The notes under the pieces are model-generated. The model saw only the letters and a program-made list of their open reading frames with translations, was not told where the DNA came from and did no database searches. 64,000 bases of DNA from Synechococcus sp. A10-1-5-1 (GTDB lineage: Bacteria; Cyanobacteriota; Cyanobacteriia; PCC-6307; Cyanobiaceae): the NCBI RefSeq assembly GCF_023115425.1, contig NZ_CP096032.1, positions 372,001-436,000 on the forward strand, read 5' to 3'. Numbering within the stretch: the first letter of the stretch is position 1; each line of letters opens with the position of its first letter. The position numbers and the translations under genes are program-made. Shown one piece after another: positions 4,865 to 60,257 of the stretch.

Positions 4865-6067
4865 CTAGCCCTCGAGCAAACGTCCCCGCCAGGTCCAGCC
4901 ACGGCCCGTGGTCGTCTTCCAGATGCTGGCCGGAACGATGGCTGCAATCAAGAACGCACCCAGCCAGCTAAGCCACCAAAAGCGGATCGGCGTGCCAAAG
5001 CGCCAGGAACTCCAAAGACGAATCGCCAAAACCAAAACCAATGACGCCCCGACAGTGATGGCCGTGAGCGGCATCACTGCTCCCCCCAACAGTTGCTGGA
5101 GAAGCAACAGAGCAGCAGCGACCCAAGGCCCCGCGAACAAAAGAAGCACGACGCCTACGCTCCCTGCCGCCTTGAACCAATTGCGATCCACCCCCAAGAA
5201 CCAGTTTTTGGTCCAGCCTTCCCAGAGGGCAGCCAGCGAGCGATACATCTGCAGGTCGACAAGATCCACACCCAGCAAATACCGCAAGCGCAGATTCGCT
5301 TGCTTGATCTTGCGCGCCAGGGCGAGATCCTCAACCACTTCCGAGGCCACTCCACGGTGACCACCAATGGCTAGGTAGCTGGAATAGCGAAAGAGCATGA
5401 AGGGCCCCGCCGCAAAAGCGGTTGGATCGTCGGGGTCATTGCTGCGGCGAATCGGGAAGCCAAGGCCGAGCAACGTCGCCACGATTGGCTGGACCAACCA
5501 TTCCGCCAAACAACTGCATTCCAGGCGCGGAGCCAGGGTCAGTAGGTCACTGCCTTGCGAGCAGGCCTCTTGAAGGGCGGCCTCGATGACACCCGGGCGT
5601 AAACGCACATCGGCATCCAGGAAAAGCAACCACTGGCTGGAGGCATCGCCGCCGGGCCAAGACAAATCAGCCCCCACGCTTGCCGGCCAGTTTTTGCCCG
5701 ACCAACGCTCACCGCCGGGACGTGGTCCGGCTTGCACGACTCTCCAGCTCAAATCCGTGCGCAGGCAGGCCAGGCGCGCCGAGTCGGCCAAGGCCTGGGT
5801 GTCATCGCTAGAGGCATCGTCGATCACCACCAGCTCGATCGGCCAATCAGGCGGTAGTGCAGCGACGATGGCTCCGAGACAGTCCGTGATGTTGTCGTGC
5901 TCGTTGTAGGCGGGCACCAGGATCCGCAACCAGCTACAGCCGCTGGGCCGTTCCTGCGAGCCACTCGCGCCCAGCCTCGGTGCGCGGCCCAGTTGCAGCT
6001 CGAGGGCCAGCAACAACAGCAGCAAGCAGGCACTGCTGGCGCTAGCCAGACAGAGGATCAGCGGCAT
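4865..6067 (-). CDS. Membrane glycosyltransferase, family 2
   Basis: Inverting GT-A glycosyltransferase, 400 aa. An N-terminal hydrophobic helix is followed by ILVPAYNEHDNI, VVIDDASSDDT and the metal-binding LFLDADVRL, then the acceptor-side EVVEDLALARKIK (ED base) and two or three C-terminal membrane helices. The phrase SGKNWPASVG resembles the GKNWA motif of carotenoid glycosyltransferases such as CruG/CruC, so a carotenoid or lipid acceptor is possible but unproven. The ATG at 6067 overlaps the end of csaB by 10 bp; the longer in-frame reading has no membrane start. Likely co-translated with csaB. Confidence 0.85.
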   Translation of the reverse strand: MPLILCLASASSACLLLLLLALELQLGRAPRLGASGSQERPSGCSWLRILVPAYNEHDNITDCLGAIVAALPPDWPIELVVIDDASSDDTQALADSARLACLRTDLSWRVVQAGPRPGGERWSGKNWPASVGADLSWPGGDASSQWLLFLDADVRLRPGVIEAALQEACSQGSDLLTLAPRLECSCLAEWLVQPIVATLLGLGFPIRRSNDPDDPTAFAAGPFMLFRYSSYLAIGGHRGVASEVVEDLALARKIKQANLRLRYLLGVDLVDLQMYRSLAALWEGWTKNWFLGVDRNWFKAAGSVGVVLLLFAGPWVAAALLLLQQLLGGAVMPLTAITVGASLVLVLAIRLWSSWRFGTPIRFWWLSWLGAFLIAAIVPASIWKTTTGRGWTWRGRLLEG

Positions 6068-15686: not shown

Positions 15687-15822
15687 CTCCACAGGGCTCC
15701 ATTGGGTACGGTCCAACCCCACCCCTAGCCACGGCAGAGCGACCTGATCACAGTCGTCTCAAGGGGGACTAGCGCATCCCAAGAAAGACCCTTAAGATTG
15801 ATTTTAGGTTTGAGCACTGGGA

Positions 15823-50301: not shown

Positions 50302-50375
50302 CCGAGATCGACTGCGCTGCAAAGAGGTGAACCGCTGTGCCGTTCTGCCCCAGATTCCGACCTGAATAAACCAGA
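50302..50375. repeat. Left attachment repeat (attL core)
   Basis: Direct repeat of 60036-60110. Exact for 39 bp (50326-50364 versus 60061-60099); differences are a CG/TA pair, one indel with a substitution near 50325 and one A/G. It is the displaced copy of the 6S RNA 3' end. Confidence 0.9.
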
Positions 50376-50426: not shown

Positions 50427-50459
50427 GTCAGTCAATATGTCAGTCAGTTTGTCAGTCAA
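50427..50459. repeat. Left iteron set (putative recombinase arm sites)
   Basis: Three direct GTCAGTCA units at 12-bp spacing (50427, 50439, 50451). It ends 5 bp before the integrase start, so binding there could repress the integrase. An almost identical set (one mismatch in 33 bp) lies at 59987-60019. Confidence 0.8.
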
Positions 50460-50464
50460 CCAGC

Positions 50465-51766
50465 GTGGCCCTGCCCTCTGGGTTGATCCAAATCAAAGGC
50501 AGGCGTGGGTTCTACACGAACATCACAGTCCCGCTGAAGCACCGCAAAACGCTCGGCAAGTCAGTCATCCAAAAGAAGGCTGGCGACACGCTTCAGGAAG
50601 CGCGGCAGAAGCTGTGGGAGGAGCAGTCCAAGGCTCGAGATCTGTTCCAGCGGCTTGAGCAGGAAACGCCCGAAGGACAGCTAAGGGCTCGCTTCCGTCA
50701 ATGGCAGCAGATCGAAACCGAGGAAAAGGCAAAGGGGATCGAGCCGAGTGATTTGGAGCTGAGCGCAGAGGAGTCACTCGAGCTTGAGATCAACGAGGCG
50801 GTCTGGCCAACGGCTGACCCAATAGATCCCACCGAAGGAAGACTCTCCAGAAAAGACAGGAGGCTCGTTGAAGAAGCGGAGGCGCTCAAGGCAGGCCTTC
50901 ACCATTGGGAGGAGTGGCTGAGCGAGAGAACGGTCACGTCAGGGGGTGTCAGCCCACTTGTTGAGAAGCGTTGGAGGACGGTCCTTAAAAGGTTTGTCGG
51001 GTGGTCAAGAGAGGAGTACCCAGAACGGGTCGAGAAGAAAACAGCTGCTGACTACAAGCGCCATCTCCTCACCAGGACCAACAGACAAGGGAGAACCTCG
51101 AAGCAGTCGACGGTGGCGAAAGACATCCGAGACCTAAGCGCTGCCTGGAAATGGGCAACCCGGCACGGGTTCGCCAAGGTCAACATCTGGGAGGGGCTTG
51201 CAAGAAACCTGGAAACAAGCAAGCCGCGCTCACTGCCCGACAAGAACACGATCACGAAGGCAGACGAACGAGCTGCTGTGAATTCAGACCTGAGGTACCT
51301 GATCCAAAGATTCACTGGCTGCCGCAAACAAGGGGTCTGCGGACTGAGGAAGCAAGACATTGATCTCGAGAATCAGCTCATCCATTTCGTGGAGTACGAG
51401 GAGGAGGGCAGGGTCAGAAAGCTGAAAGGGGGGCAAGAGCTACACATCCCCATTCACAGGACCCTGCTGCCGTTCCTCCTAAATGCGATTCCGGCGTTCC
51501 AAGACGGGCCTCTATGGCCAGAGGAGTACAAGGCAGGTGAGGAGAGCTGGGGTGATCGATATGGGGACAGCTTCAAAGACCGCTATGGCTTTAACAGCCA
51601 TGACCTGAGACGGATTGTCGAGACACAGATGGCGAAAGCGAATGTGAGCCCATACTTCGCCTTCTATGTGACTGGTCACCGAGTTCCAGGGATGTCTGAA
51701 GTGACGACCAAATACGTAAGACCCACTGCTGATGAGCTGAGGCAAGTCGTAGAGCTTATTGACTGA
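50465..51766 (+). CDS. int: Tyrosine recombinase / integrase
   Basis: 433 aa site-specific recombinase that would insert and excise the element. The catalytic residues are visible: Arg in RFTGCRKQGVCGLR (box I), Lys in RVRKLKGGQELHI, HDLRR (His and Arg of box II), the GH in YVTGHRVPG and the nucleophile Tyr in TTKYVRP. Residues ~150-245 form a core-binding domain (WRTVLKRFVGWSREEYP, AAWKWATRHGF). The N-terminal ~50 residues (IQIKGRRGFYTNITVPLK) look like an arm-binding domain. GTG start at 50465. Confidence 0.93.
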   Translation: MALPSGLIQIKGRRGFYTNITVPLKHRKTLGKSVIQKKAGDTLQEARQKLWEEQSKARDLFQRLEQETPEGQLRARFRQWQQIETEEKAKGIEPSDLELSAEESLELEINEAVWPTADPIDPTEGRLSRKDRRLVEEAEALKAGLHHWEEWLSERTVTSGGVSPLVEKRWRTVLKRFVGWSREEYPERVEKKTAADYKRHLLTRTNRQGRTSKQSTVAKDIRDLSAAWKWATRHGFAKVNIWEGLARNLETSKPRSLPDKNTITKADERAAVNSDLRYLIQRFTGCRKQGVCGLRKQDIDLENQLIHFVEYEEEGRVRKLKGGQELHIPIHRTLLPFLLNAIPAFQDGPLWPEEYKAGEESWGDRYGDSFKDRYGFNSHDLRRIVETQMAKANVSPYFAFYVTGHRVPGMSEVTTKYVRPTADELRQVVELID

Positions 51767-51769
51767 TGC

Positions 51770-52810
51770 TGTGAAAGGTGATGTCTGGGCTCTACAGACG
51801 AAGGAAGTAGCGGGCGTCGACGAAGACAAGTAGTAACGGTCCCATAGGGGAGGGACAGATCCGCCTCGTAAATAGCGAAAGCGTTGATAGCGGGCGTTTA
51901 GAGGAGAGGGTTCCGAGCAGTCCACGAAGCAGTCTCCAAGAGCCAGGTCGAAAAATCAGACCTGGCGAGGAATGAAACCGTGGTTCCAGGCTGAATCTGG
52001 AGTGCCTGTTCCCACAGGCGGTTTAACCGAACACGCACTTATATAGGGGAGGCATCTGGCTCAAGCCATCACTGGGAGTGCTGGGTTAATGGCGCACTTA
52101 TACGGAAGAGACGCCTGGTTAAAGCACTAAATAGGAGAGCTTGGCTAATGACACACTTATACAGGGAAGCCCCCTAGCTGAATCCCTGAGAGGGGAGAGC
52201 TGGGGTAATGGCGGACTTATACAGAGAAGTCACCTGGCTAAAGCCCTAAATGGGAGAGCTGGGGCAATGGCGCACTAATACAGGGAAGGCGCCTCAGGGC
52301 GTCTCGCTGTTCCTGGGCCGTCGCCGCTGACCGTCAAAGCAAAGACGTAAAAACTCCACGCCTGGAAACGTGGTTAAAGAAAGGCAGAGCTGCGAATGCC
52401 CATTGGGGAGTAGCTCGTTCTGCGGTTTCGTTGAACCCAGGCACTAAGGACGTCAGGCACCCTTAGCAGCGGCCAAATCAACGCTTGCCCGCGACACCTG
52501 GAGAGGTGGCGTGAGGACCCTCTCCAAGTTGAAGCCCGTTGCAATGCCGCTTGGCGTTACGACGGGACTAACGAACCGACTGGAAGGTCAAAGAGAAGCC
52601 TCCGGCTGTAGCCAGTTCATTTGAAACAACTGCCGACCAAGGCAGTAGCGAAGACGAAGCAGAGTCCATGTCATCCAGACAAGACCACTGAAAGTCTTTG
52701 TGTTTCAAACGGGCTGAGCTACAGGCGGAGCCACTTTTAGTGGCGAGTTTCACTTTGCACCATCCAGTTGAAGATATATACGGGTTAACTGTATAGAGAA
52801 GCAGTTAAGT
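51770..52810 (+). ncRNA. Large structured noncoding RNA candidate
   Basis: About 1 kb directly after the integrase holds no credible gene but many perfect inverted repeats: 51783-51799 (5 bp), 51839-51856 (5), 51942-51966 (8), 52004-52019 (6), the tandem array at 52035-52300, 52356-52373 (5), 52444-52466 (6), 52495-52508 (5), 52535-52566 with inner 52543-52558 (6), 52629-52646 (6), 52681-52698 (5), 52730-52744 (5) and 52785-52808 (7). Several stems contain G-T pairs that only work as G-U in the plus-strand RNA. Context and size recall phage-borne giant RNAs such as GOLLD and ROOL, but I see no specific match. Ends and promoter are not defined. Confidence 0.6.
52035..52300 (+). repeat. Tandem array of ~59-60-bp hairpin units
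   Basis: Units begin near 52035, 52094, 52153, 52213 and 52272 (spacing 59, 59, 60, 59), the last partial. Consensus start GCACTTATACAGGGAAG, then CCTGGCTAAAGCCC and GGGAGAGCTGGGG. Within each unit CCTGGCT-type and AGCTGGG-type segments can pair, closing an inner CCC/GGG hairpin. The mixed 59/60 period argues against coding. Confidence 0.85.
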
Positions 52811-53032
52811 GCACTCCAGAAATGGAGCCTAAATGAACACAGGAGCAATCCATCACTCGACAAAGAACATATCTGGACAACAGAATAGGTGCTATAGGCA
52901 AAACCTAAGACAACACAACCCAAGATGACTCTCCGTGAAATACCCAGATAGGTACTTATCACTCGATCGACAATCACCGTCTACCAGGACAAGGGACCAG
53001 TAGGCGGCACCAAAGATTTCAACGTTGAAAAA

Positions 53033-53935
53033 ATGGACTTACCAACACTTATTAATCCAATTCGAGATGATGGCGGCCTCGACCACCGCTACACAGGCTT
53101 GGCAAGGCAAATCGTTGACCTGGCTGGCAAGAAGTGTGTCAGCGAATTGGCAGCCTTTCATCAATACACCAATGACGCCGAAGCACGTTTTGAGAAGGCC
53201 GGACTAACGCTTGTCATTTCGTTCTTCCAAATCACGATGGAGCCTTGGCAACGCAGAAGCTTTAAGAAGAGACTGCGTCAGTGCCTGGAAGAGATTGGTT
53301 TCAGGCCATCCAAGATCACCAAGCTCCTCACAGCAGGGGAGTTCGTAGCAGCAGAGCTGACTGATCAGTTCAGGCAATCCGATTCCTATCAAGACTGGTT
53401 TGACTCTGCAGAGGCTGCTAAGGCACACAACGAGGAGCACATCGTCTATCTCCATAGTCATGGAGTAACAGCTCTGTACCACCTGGCGAGGATGAATTAC
53501 AAAGGTCAAGCAAAGGCACGTAGTAGCTACGACCACGAGATAGGAAAACCACTATCCGTACGAGACCTTGAGAAGCTCCAGCGGCAGCACCCAGCAGAGA
53601 ACAGAAGCCAACGATCAGGTCGCGGAAGGCAACCAGGAACCAATCAGAAGGCGAACTCAGCACTTCCTCAAGGTTCTGAGTGCCCAAAAGTAGAAGTCGA
53701 ATCTTCTGTCATTGCTGAACTGATGCCTTTGGAACCATCCGTAGACAGCCGTGAAGCCACCACCACCGAGCTGGCTGAACAGCTTGTCTATTTGGTTCAA
53801 AGCATTGACTGGTCAATGATCAAGGACAACCAAGAAGCGATGGAAGTACTCAGCACTGTTGAGTACACCTGGAGTCAGATCAGCGAGGTTGTCGACGACT
53901 GGAAGTACTTACCCCAGCAACTCACTCATGCATAA
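53033..53935 (+). CDS. Element protein of unknown function (300 aa)
   Basis: Soluble helical protein. The first half (ARQIVDLAGKKCVSELAAF, RRSFKKRLRQCLEEIGFRPS, KITKLLTAGEFVAAEL) looks DNA-binding or replication-related, broadly like DUF3102-type plasmid/phage proteins. The middle (RSQRSGRGRQPGTNQKANS) is a basic linker. It is first in a row of overlapping small ORFs. No function can be assigned. Confidence 0.65.
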   Translation: MDLPTLINPIRDDGGLDHRYTGLARQIVDLAGKKCVSELAAFHQYTNDAEARFEKAGLTLVISFFQITMEPWQRRSFKKRLRQCLEEIGFRPSKITKLLTAGEFVAAELTDQFRQSDSYQDWFDSAEAAKAHNEEHIVYLHSHGVTALYHLARMNYKGQAKARSSYDHEIGKPLSVRDLEKLQRQHPAENRSQRSGRGRQPGTNQKANSALPQGSECPKVEVESSVIAELMPLEPSVDSREATTTELAEQLVYLVQSIDWSMIKDNQEAMEVLSTVEYTWSQISEVVDDWKYLPQQLTHA

Positions 53936-54852: not shown

Positions 54853-55842
54853 TTATTGACTACCAGCAGCTATCCAGCCCCCACCAGCTCCTATTGATTG
54901 TAAAAATATCTCACCAAGATTTGTATCGTGCACCCGCACATCCCTATTGCTAGGCGTTGATGTTATGGCGCTAACAGCGGCATTTGTTTTTGGTGTTTCT
55001 TTGCCAGGACCGCCATTCGTATTGAAGCGCCACTTGATGTCTGCCGAGAAGCGTGACTTGAAGGCACTGTCATAAGACAGGTTGGTGCCAACCGTAAGTC
55101 CGTTGTTGATGGCATAAGCGAGGCGAGCCAAGACACCAGAGCCATCGGCTGCACCTTCATCACCGTTTTGGTAGTAGTAACCAACAGAGGCTCTTAGTCC
55201 TGGCGTCAGGTTGTAACCAGCATCTAAGCCATAGGTGTCCAGTGCACCGCCTTGATAGACGGTGTTGAGCTGTTGCTCGGTGTCACCCGTTGGAATGAGC
55301 GCATAAGCATTGAATGCCCACTTATCGCTTACCGCTTCTGCATTGACAGCCGCCTGCTAGAAGAAAGCCGTGCGTGAGGCATAGACAGGGATGCCTGTAT
55401 CAGCAGGACCCGTGCTCATTGGTCGGGTGTCATAGCCCGCATTCAGTCCATACATCCAACTGCGGTCACCATTGAGCCAGCGATAGCCCAGGCGCGATGA
55501 GGTGGAGATGGTGGTACCAGCCACCTTCGTATTGATGATGCTGCTGCTGTTACCCCAGTCCGAGAAGTTGGCATTCGCCAGGACATCAGCAAAGAAGACG
55601 CTGTTGCTGCCGACGACCAGTGGAAGGAAGCTACCCAGACCTGCTTGGTTGGGGGTGCCAGCGGCTTGGGTTTGACCTTGGATGCCGACCTGCGGTTTGA
55701 CGATGTCCTTGAGCTGAATGCTCATCACGCCCAGATCTTCTGCTGACCCTTGAGCTACGGCAGGCTCGGCGTTAACGGAAGGGAGGGTTGCAAACGCAAA
55801 AGCCGTTGCAGCCACGCCGCAAAAAGGTCTTATGAGGGACAT
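54853..55842 (-). pseudogene. Outer-membrane beta-barrel protein gene with in-frame amber codon
   Basis: A 330-codon frame beginning with a signal peptide (FCGVAATAFAFATLPSVNAE) is interrupted by a single TAG at 55357-55359; frame, composition and motifs continue unchanged after it. Before the stop: SSRLGYRWLNGDRSWMYGLN and AGYDTRPMSTG, resembling the beta-domain of inverse autotransporters (intimin-like). After it: DTYGLDAGYNLTPGLRASVG and GLTVGTNLSYDSAFKSRF, more barrel strands. The local codon reads TTC TAG CAG, so one C-to-T change of CAG would explain it. It is either a fresh pseudogene, a read-through gene or a sequencing error. Confidence 0.75.
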
Positions 55843-55998
55843 TGAAAGGTTTCCCTCACGAATCAATTTGCATCACATTGCATCGGCGACAGCTCACTTC
55901 AGCGGCTTAGGTGTCAGTCGCTTTATTGGCGGCTCCGACCTTCGGTATGGAGATTGGGGAAAGGGGTCACTGCCTTGATCAATGATGGGGTGATGCAC

Positions 55999-59986: not shown

Positions 59987-60019
59987 GTCAGTCAATGTGT
60001 CAGTCAGTTTGTCAGTCAA
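59987..60019. repeat. Right iteron set (putative recombinase arm sites)
   Basis: Three GTCAGTCA units at 12-bp spacing (59987, 59999, 60011), one mismatch from the left set over 33 bp and in the same orientation. After excision the two sets would flank the att core. Confidence 0.8.
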
Positions 60020-60035
60020 TCGGATCCAACAAAAC

Positions 60036-60110
60036 CCGAGATTAACTGCGCTGCAAAGGGGGTGAACCGCTGTGCCGTTCTGCCCCAGATTCCGACCTGG
60101 ATAAACCAGA
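60036..60110. repeat. Right attachment repeat (attR core, 3' part of 6S RNA)
   Basis: Direct repeat of 50302-50375. It lies within the 3' arm of the predicted 6S RNA hairpin, so this end of the element rebuilds the RNA gene. Confidence 0.9.
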
Positions 60111-60228
60111 AGGGGAGTCAAAGCGAAGATTCGTTTCCGGCTACGAGGCCGGTCTACGGCACTGTCGCGACAGACGCCCCAAGTCGAAAAGGGAGTCAGA
60201 TCAGAAAACTGTAAAAGGCAGTGACCAA
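60040..60228 (-). ncRNA. ssaA: 6S RNA (SsaA), putative
   Basis: Lies ~30 bp downstream of purK on the same strand, the place known for cyanobacterial 6S RNA, and spans about 185-190 nt, the usual size. Long-range pairing fits a 6S rod: 60218-60222 with 60045-60049, a CCCC/GGGG block (60177-60180 with 60058-60062), and a perfect 7-bp helix 60156-60162 with 60072-60078. Two local hairpins sit inside (60137-60152 and 60097-60109). 6S RNA binds RNA polymerase holoenzyme and tunes transcription. Exact ends are estimates; identity rests on position and fold. Confidence 0.68.
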
Positions 60229-60257
60229 CACAGCAGTCCGTCGAAATCTTAGGCCCA

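Follow-up and report, generated by a model that had tools for sequence, protein, structure and literature searches.

A predicted structured RNA behind phage-type promoter-like units in an integrative element of Synechococcus sp. A10-1-5-1

In the genome of Synechococcus sp. A10-1-5-1, about 1 kb of DNA directly behind an integrase gene is crowded with short inverted repeats. The question raised by this locus is whether it encodes an RNA and, if so, which part of it does so and what would transcribe it. An earlier note, made from the sequence, had read the whole of 51770-52810 as one candidate RNA, densely hairpinned, carried by a mobile element and transcribed from the plus strand. We analysed the window in which the locus lies, a stretch of 64,000 nucleotides (contig NZ_CP096032.1, positions 372,001 to 436,000 of the forward strand), together with related loci (L numbers) and genomes (G numbers). 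A single ORF (open reading frame) of at least 100 aa reaches into 51770-52810; it lies on the minus strand at 51512-51925 and overlaps the end of the integrase gene.

The region is part of an element of about 9.7 kb, which has an integrase and end repeats at the 6S RNA gene. The features that delimit it are as follows.

50302-50375, no strand: left end repeat, a copy of the 3'-end sequence of the 6S RNA gene (direct repeats D6, 88%, and D4, 95%, with 60036-60110)
50427-50459, no strand: arm-like repeat just within the left end (97% identity to 59987-60019)
50465-51766, plus strand: tyrosine recombinase (integrase), 433 aa (PF00589, E 8.5e-08; phrog_1, E 1.8e-20)
59987-60019, no strand: arm-like repeat just within the right end, pairing with 50427-50459
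60036-60110, no strand: right end repeat, which overlaps the 6S RNA gene at its 3' end (repeat comparison and Rfam)
60060-60242, minus strand: 6S RNA gene (ssrS), the presumed integration site (Rfam RF00013, 94.1 bits)

Having both an integrase and attachment-site repeats, this small integrative element resembles phage satellites (PICI, PICMI and others), and induction by a helper phage is proposed for it below. The known inducers of phage satellites are phage proteins that relieve a repressor, whereas the cue proposed here is a phage RNA polymerase acting on promoters. Packaging genes were not recognised in the element either: among the 8 ORFs of the 54-60 kb stretch, which gave no informative PHROGs match, there was no recognisable capsid, terminase or packaging-interference gene, and genes that are too divergent could escape these models. 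The tycheposons of Prochlorococcus are likewise tyrosine-recombinase elements, found in picocyanobacterial islands, and they integrate at tRNA genes, whereas the element of the window sits at the 6S RNA gene and no tRNA gene was found in the 64-kb window. To our knowledge, no such RNA or promoter array is known from tycheposons.

The surroundings of related loci were also inspected. A 6S RNA gene lies less than 4.5 kb from the RNA in L067 as well (1531-1714 of that locus), hinting that this gene may be a recurrent integration site of the family. L013 and L032 have a second neighbourhood in common, in which the start of the integrase gene adjoins the 5' end of one type of gene, presumably a cysteine-desulfurase-like one, and L032 also encodes what looks, by eye, like a relative of the glycine-zipper protein next to the element of the window. 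Inside the latter element, a minus-strand ORF (55357-55866) gave no Pfam or PHROGs match; by eye its start is signal-like and its product resembles an outer-membrane protein. An additional ORF with KKLTxxQxQYRKRKK near its start is located between integrase and RNA in L010 and L011.

To answer the first part of the question, the folding energy of the region was compared with that of shuffled controls. The plus strand of 51770-52760 folded at -403.6 kcal/mol, against -341.1 +- 6.9 for 20 shuffles (z -9.1), and the minus strand gave a z of -5.6 (20 shuffles). Both strands fold better than their shuffles, the plus strand more so, and the signal lies in the 3' half: for 52281-52830 on the plus strand z was -6.95 and none of 100 shuffles folded as well, whereas for the 5' half, 51770-52280, z was -1.99 and 4 of 100 shuffles folded equally well. 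The hairpins of the 5' half are thus near what chance gives for their composition, and the structure sits in the 3' half. Of the dense hairpins that had been described over about 1 kb, those in 52281-52830 stand and those in 51770-52280 do not, so that the 5' boundary had been set about 500 bases too far upstream. The RNA is predicted to be about 540 nt long, with its 5' end near 52281, as judged by the position of the last promoter-like unit (see below), and its 3' end at 52830, the limit of conservation.

52281-52830, plus strand: structured RNA core (z -6.95; 73-75% identity to the cores of relatives; both sides changed in 32 of the 144 pairs predicted for 5 sequences)
52356-52373, plus strand: helix P1 (4 of 5 pairs covary in 8 sequences)
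52384-52423, plus strand: helix P2, with the GAATGCC..GGGAGTAG element (in 8 sequences, 5 of 9 pairs of the outer helix covary and 100% of its cells are paired; inner helix, 1 of 3 and 95.8%)
52976-53008, plus strand: hairpin with ACCAGGACAAG between the RNA and the downstream gene (by eye; similar in several relatives)

Homologues were then sought. A BLAST search with the region gave matches in 6 of 149 genomes, the window's own among them. Core-covering matches, of about 410-490 bases at 73-75% identity, were obtained in G007, G068 and (twice) G014; the match in G013 is confined to near both ends of the region, and that in G060 (L006/L014) is of 40 bases. For five cores, RNAalifold predicted the 144 pairs mentioned above. 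In a structure of P1 and P2 built on eight sequences, 99.3% of the cells were paired and 10 of 17 pairs had changed on both sides, and the pairing dropped to 27-49% of the cells when the partners were slid; the shorter forms, also in eight sequences, gave 42 pairs, of which 22 had changed on both sides. When a covariance model of the 74 positions of P1 and P2 was run on 400 genomes of the window's family, it matched 25 places at E up to 0.01, spread over 22 of the genomes, and the window's genome has a single such place. The homologues thus contain covarying pairs, as had been suggested as a check on the RNA. The proposed plus-strand direction is likewise backed by the fold, by the compensatory pairs in the homologues and by the orientation of the promoter-like units described below.

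We compared the RNA with catalogued families. In the window and 17 related loci, Rfam did not match it at gathering score, and a relaxed search with the region (E up to 5) gave solely CRISPR-DR9 (1.4) and HOTTIP_2 (0.2), both far under their gathering scores; the other Rfam matches across the runs were 6S RNA (window and L067), a tRNA (L009) and a glutamine-II riboswitch (L065). The last, RF01704, lies at L065:6551-6610 on the RNA's strand, about 400 bases upstream of the RNA. From these sequence comparisons we conclude that the predicted RNA represents a covarying family that is not catalogued in Rfam, and the idea of a large structured RNA, possibly of a new class, borne by the element has held up. 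GOLLD, ROOL and HEARO are large structured RNAs of phages or mobile elements, and a search with their models had been suggested. A giant ornate RNA of that kind, about 1 kb long, would suit the size first described and the location in a mobile element. Models of these families gave no match either at gathering score (window and 17 related loci) or at E up to 5 (region), the 5' half is hardly structured, and the RNA differs from them in length and arrangement; we regard this explanation as extremely unlikely.

Further members were looked for in other DNA. A homology search of phage DNA with the region returned three records, at E 0.4. A sequence-pattern search of genome contigs returned one record, Synechococcus sp. 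HJ21-Hayes, which equals G007/L009 over the 1510 compared bases. With five patterns, no member of the RNA family was found in IMG/VR viral contigs: 6 pattern matches were rejected as chance and 9 others because they fail the RNA model at E 0.01, and three more specific patterns gave no IMG/VR match. The candidate loci L034 and L036 were rejected because they lie inside coding genes, and L035 looks alike by sequence. Two copies of the RNA motif are present in L070 (6406-6478 and 9584-9654), 3.2 kb apart with a broken gene for a single-subunit RNA polymerase (ssRNAP) between them. In L070, L071 and L075 a tetratricopeptide-repeat-like gene lies, by eye, immediately upstream of the RNA on the opposite strand.

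If the 5' half is not part of the folded RNA, what is it? The tandem units that had been noticed there are real (59 nt, 52034-52288, 4.3 copies) and look like promoters rather than RNA hairpins. Judged by the comparisons below, 51770-52280 is an array of degenerate units like the ssRNAP promoters of T7-like cyanophages. Its parts are listed here with their scores against the phage matrix described below.

51780-52027, plus strand: 5' part of the array, with more degenerate units (one above 9, at 51857-51880, 11.0)
52028-52051, plus strand: phage-type promoter-like unit CGAACACGCACTTATATAGGGGAG (17.1)
52146-52169, plus strand: phage-type promoter-like unit TAATGACACACTTATACAGGGAAG (21.1, the top of the 64-kb window)
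52206-52229, plus strand: phage-type promoter-like unit TAATGGCGGACTTATACAGAGAAG (14.4)
52265-52288, plus strand: last phage-type promoter-like unit CAATGGCGCACTAATACAGGGAAG (17.2), with the RNA start presumed near 52281

Similar arrays, of one to about ten degenerate copies of a TAATGGCGCACTTATACAGGGAAG-like unit, are found at the array-type loci (the window, L009, L010, L012, L013, L032 and L033), and 51772-51909 is 73% identical to the array of L013. The array units share a TATACAGGG-type start region and specificity words with the T7-like promoters of cyanophages (Syn5 and relatives, Autographiviridae). They differ from them in arrangement, since the phage sites are paired in the five phages read whole, one in the RNA polymerase (RNAP) gene and one near the terminase gene, and the units of the element stand in tandem arrays before an RNA gene. 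The Syn5 promoter is given as ATTGGGCACCCGTAA in PMC3950665; as far as this source goes, it is the one site among them published as a promoter, and the other phage sites are assigned by position.

The likeness was examined in both directions. The sequence ATTGGGCACCCGTAA is located at positions 4929 and 44797 of Syn5, the places of the RNAP gene and the terminase, and at both of these places P60 has a 20-nt sequence, identical in its two copies, that differs from the Syn5 promoter. A matrix made from 24 array units was run on five complete cyanopodovirus genomes. In S-CBP1 and P-SSP7 its top two matches lie about 810 bases into the RNAP gene and just after the terminase gene, and in S-CBP42 its matches of ranks 2 and 3 lie at the same place of the RNAP gene and about 290 bases past an unannotated terminase-like frame. 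The scores in S-CBP1 (22.8 and 17.2) are above the maxima of five shuffles; those in P-SSP7 (16.6 and 15.7) and S-CBP42 (11.9) are within the range of the shuffles, so that in these two phages it is the position that is the evidence. The array matrix failed to find the promoters of Syn5 or P60.

For the reverse comparison, the RNAP-gene site was gathered from 23 phages. The core ATACAGGG is carried by 15 of the 23 sites and missing from 8 (Syn5, P60, S-CBP42, S-CBP2, S-TIP28, P-SSP10, 9515-10a and SS120-1). The phage matrix was made from 13 of the 15 sites, because those of 7B11-B and S-B28 are identical and were counted once and that of S-CBP3 is one base short. When both strands of the 64-kb window were searched with it, the three best matches and 5 of the 9 matches scoring at least 9 were in the array, all on the plus strand. 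The best score, 21.1, was reached in none of 200 dinucleotide shuffles (maximum 20.2). The window holds five matches of at least 14, of which the one at 15745 is not in the array; the 200 dinucleotide shuffles gave 0.18 such matches on average and never more than 2. The largest same-strand cluster within 450 nt comprised 5 matches, against a shuffle maximum of 2. The total of 9 matches scoring at least 9 is not unusual for the window (0-9 in 20 mononucleotide shuffles). In the 900 nt that precede the RNA, 7 of 8 array-type loci had phage-matrix matches, L011 being the exception. The 16 other loci had none; upstream sequence is short in three of them (14 bases in L062, 381 in L076 and 827 in L077). 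The results showed that the likeness of the array to the promoter sites of T7-like cyanophages goes beyond chance.

The nine specificity bases were compared with those of 14 phage sites. Fifteen of 28 array units are at most 2 mismatches from some phage, against 7.7 +- 2.0 with shuffled columns, a statistic that overstates independence because the units of one array share descent, and the sets of 24 and 28 units were chosen by eye and matrix, with one unit of L012 a base out of register. The units of L012 resemble S-RIP1 and S-TIP37, and those of L033 resemble S-CBP1/DSL-LC07, NATL1A-7 and S-RIP2. Those of the window have 2-4 mismatches of 9, are nearest to P-GSP1 and 7B11-B and are a close fit to no sequenced phage; this looser fit is expected if the phages of the window's host are unsequenced. 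Promoter-like matches were also seen farther from the RNA: L066:41-483 holds six phage-promoter matches on the plus strand (scores 12.0 to 29.6), 5.5-6 kb upstream of the RNA, and the RNA model found no copy of the RNA at that array; L075:1436-1529, some 4.5 kb upstream of the RNA, holds two phage-promoter-like units (19.6 and 10.4).

Guide arrays and iterons were considered for the tandem repeats and rejected once the phage matrix matched them. As a wider explanation, the repeats could be iterons of a replication origin and the protein encoded downstream (see below) an initiator or partition protein, as might be suggested by the 20-60 bp direct repeats close to a gene that has a palindrome before it. 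The units match phage promoters in sequence and orientation, the start-site region included, their copy number varies by eye from one to about ten, and the downstream protein has no initiator match, all of which makes such an origin very unlikely.

The next part of the question is what polymerase would read the array. In L063, L069, L072, L073 and L074 a gene of 812-831 aa ends 19-168 bases before helix P1, and in L067 a polymerase gene ends 1.8 kb before it. All five polymerases tested (L063, L067, L069, L072 and L074) contain PF00940, with E values of 3.8e-34 to 5.3e-42, and the polymerase of L069 matches T7 RNA polymerase at E 1.4e-34. The upstream gene in these relatives is thus predicted from its sequence to encode a T7-like ssRNAP. 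When the ssRNAP was compared with phages, 2566 records matched; among the 40 matches listed there were 28 cyanophages, and the 40 are at 25-28% identity. The ssRNAP of the sister elements therefore matches the T7 RNA polymerase family (PF00940/PF14700) and differs from the phage enzymes in being chromosomal and near the RNA gene. Broken ssRNAP copies are present in L066 and L070. The relatives that carry an ssRNAP gene upstream of the RNA have no array before the RNA; by eye, loci of this type have a single promoter-like site (GGACACTAATAGTAGAGAAG or TTATTACTATAGAGAAG) roughly 20-60 nt before P1.

The element of the window contains no ssRNAP, and none was detected in its genome: PF00940 was not found there in a first search, which covered this genome alone and had no positive control, nor in a search of 22 genomes that was positive in 12 of them, and a protein search concurs. 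PF00940 is missing in 5 of 7 array-type genomes, the window's included, and present in 10 of 15 other RNA-carrying genomes. In the two remaining array-type genomes, G013 and G175, the ssRNAP gene is far from the RNA or on a different contig, and it is possible that the RNAP of an element acts in trans there. Five of the 15 other genomes (G459, G183, G365, G536 and G544) have neither an array before the RNA nor a detected ssRNAP; among them the assembly of G183 alone is given as complete and in one contig, the other four being incomplete.

The arrays could accordingly be relics, that is, promoters of the element's own ssRNAP, since lost. That sister elements encode an ssRNAP near the RNA, intact or broken (L066 and L070), and that G013 and G175 keep one elsewhere would agree with such a history. 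The promoter-like sites of the ssRNAP-type loci differ by eye from the array units (for example GGACACTAATAGTAGAGAAG), the phage matrix matched before the RNA in none of the 16 other loci, and the array units match the promoters of sequenced phages, with several types in one array. Because the sites of the element's own polymerases differ and the array units resemble promoters of sequenced phages, this reading is the weaker one, and we consider it unlikely. Since no ssRNAP was detected in the window's genome, the most economical reading is that the polymerase comes from an infecting T7-like phage.

Behind the RNA, a palindrome and a gene for a conserved protein follow on the same strand.

53017-53030, no strand: perfect palindrome TTTCAACGTTGAAA, just ahead of the downstream gene (sequence)
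53033-53935, plus strand: gene of a conserved 300-aa protein (15 of 24 loci have a relative close to the RNA)

In these 15 loci the gene is on the RNA's strand and starts about 290-730 nt after the start of P1; the E values of the relatives may stem from an iterated search and are therefore not independent tests. The gene was not recognised in 9 of the 24 loci, some of which are cut or decayed, and in L073 and L074 an unrecognised ORF of 258 aa stands in its place. The 300-aa protein has no Pfam or PHROGs family above threshold and no relative among viral contigs. PADLOC did not match the protein of the window and gave one weak match (E 0.04) in one of 10 members, and AlphaFold2 (AF2), with two sequences, predicted a helical protein at low confidence (pLDDT 53.9). 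A perfect palindrome of 14-16 nt was found at most about 60 nt upstream of the gene in 10 of 13 loci, with one of 12 nt in 1 and none in 2, the start codons of L033, L069 and L070 being a few bases off in this survey; its sequence varies from element to element. We infer that the downstream protein may be a DNA-binding autoregulator that acts at the palindrome.

The position of this gene raises the alternative that the RNA serves chiefly as the gene's structured 5' leader and is not an independent RNA. The gene does lie on the RNA's strand some 290-730 nt past the start of P1 in the 15 loci. A covarying, multi-helix structure that spans hundreds of nt is more than one expects of a leader, separate control of the gene is suggested by the palindrome in front of it, and the gene is unrecognised in the loci mentioned above, including the two with the 258-aa ORF; we think a leader rather unlikely.

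The computed layout thus runs from a promoter-like array through the structured RNA and the palindrome to the gene of a conserved protein. The explanation that we prefer, and hold to be probably correct on the present comparisons, is that the RNA of this integrative element and its relatives is read by a phage-type RNAP, which would be the element's own in some of them and that of an infecting phage here. When a T7-like cyanophage infects the cell, its RNAP would read the array and the RNA would be made; read-through from the RNA would give the downstream protein, and the programme of the element would thereby be launched. The varied promoter-like units could allow one element to answer several phages.

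What this programme does is a further question. The array may be an anti-phage trap, which draws the phage RNAP so that the resulting RNA, alone or with the protein, stops the phage or kills the cell. That the array units resemble promoters of several phages would suit a trap, and some ncRNAs of Prochlorococcus, including the island RNA Yfr15, rise on phage infection according to PMC2518516, by which their membership of the RNA family is not implied. An element with its own ssRNAP could presumably make the RNA in the absence of any phage, and PADLOC was negative for the downstream protein apart from the single weak match; a trap is possible, and we are doubtful of it. We lean somewhat towards mobilisation or copy-up of the element, in the manner of a satellite, over an anti-phage effector: an element that brings its own polymerase carries the same RNA and could make it with no phage present.

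More generally, we propose that these elements sense infection by a panel of viral promoters, that the viral RNAP makes the RNA that runs the response, and that sister elements have internalised a viral-type polymerase, a proposal that we consider evenly balanced between right and wrong. Within a bacterial element, a panel of putative viral promoters set ahead of a structured RNA would be a new kind of arrangement, its nearest known counterparts being the phage promoters themselves, T7-like polymerases and phage satellites, and neither such an array nor such an RNA is described for cyanobacteria in the titles and opening lines of abstracts that searches of an open-licence library listed. The covariance data define a new RNA family that is open to functional study. 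If the proposal is true, a virus would be sensed through the binding preference of its RNA polymerase and the reply would be given by RNA, not by protein alone; promoter baiting of a viral polymerase would be a new way of virus sensing and the RNA a new class of effector, and the T7-like cyanophages, which are common in the sea and in lakes, would be tied to a hidden class of genomic elements.
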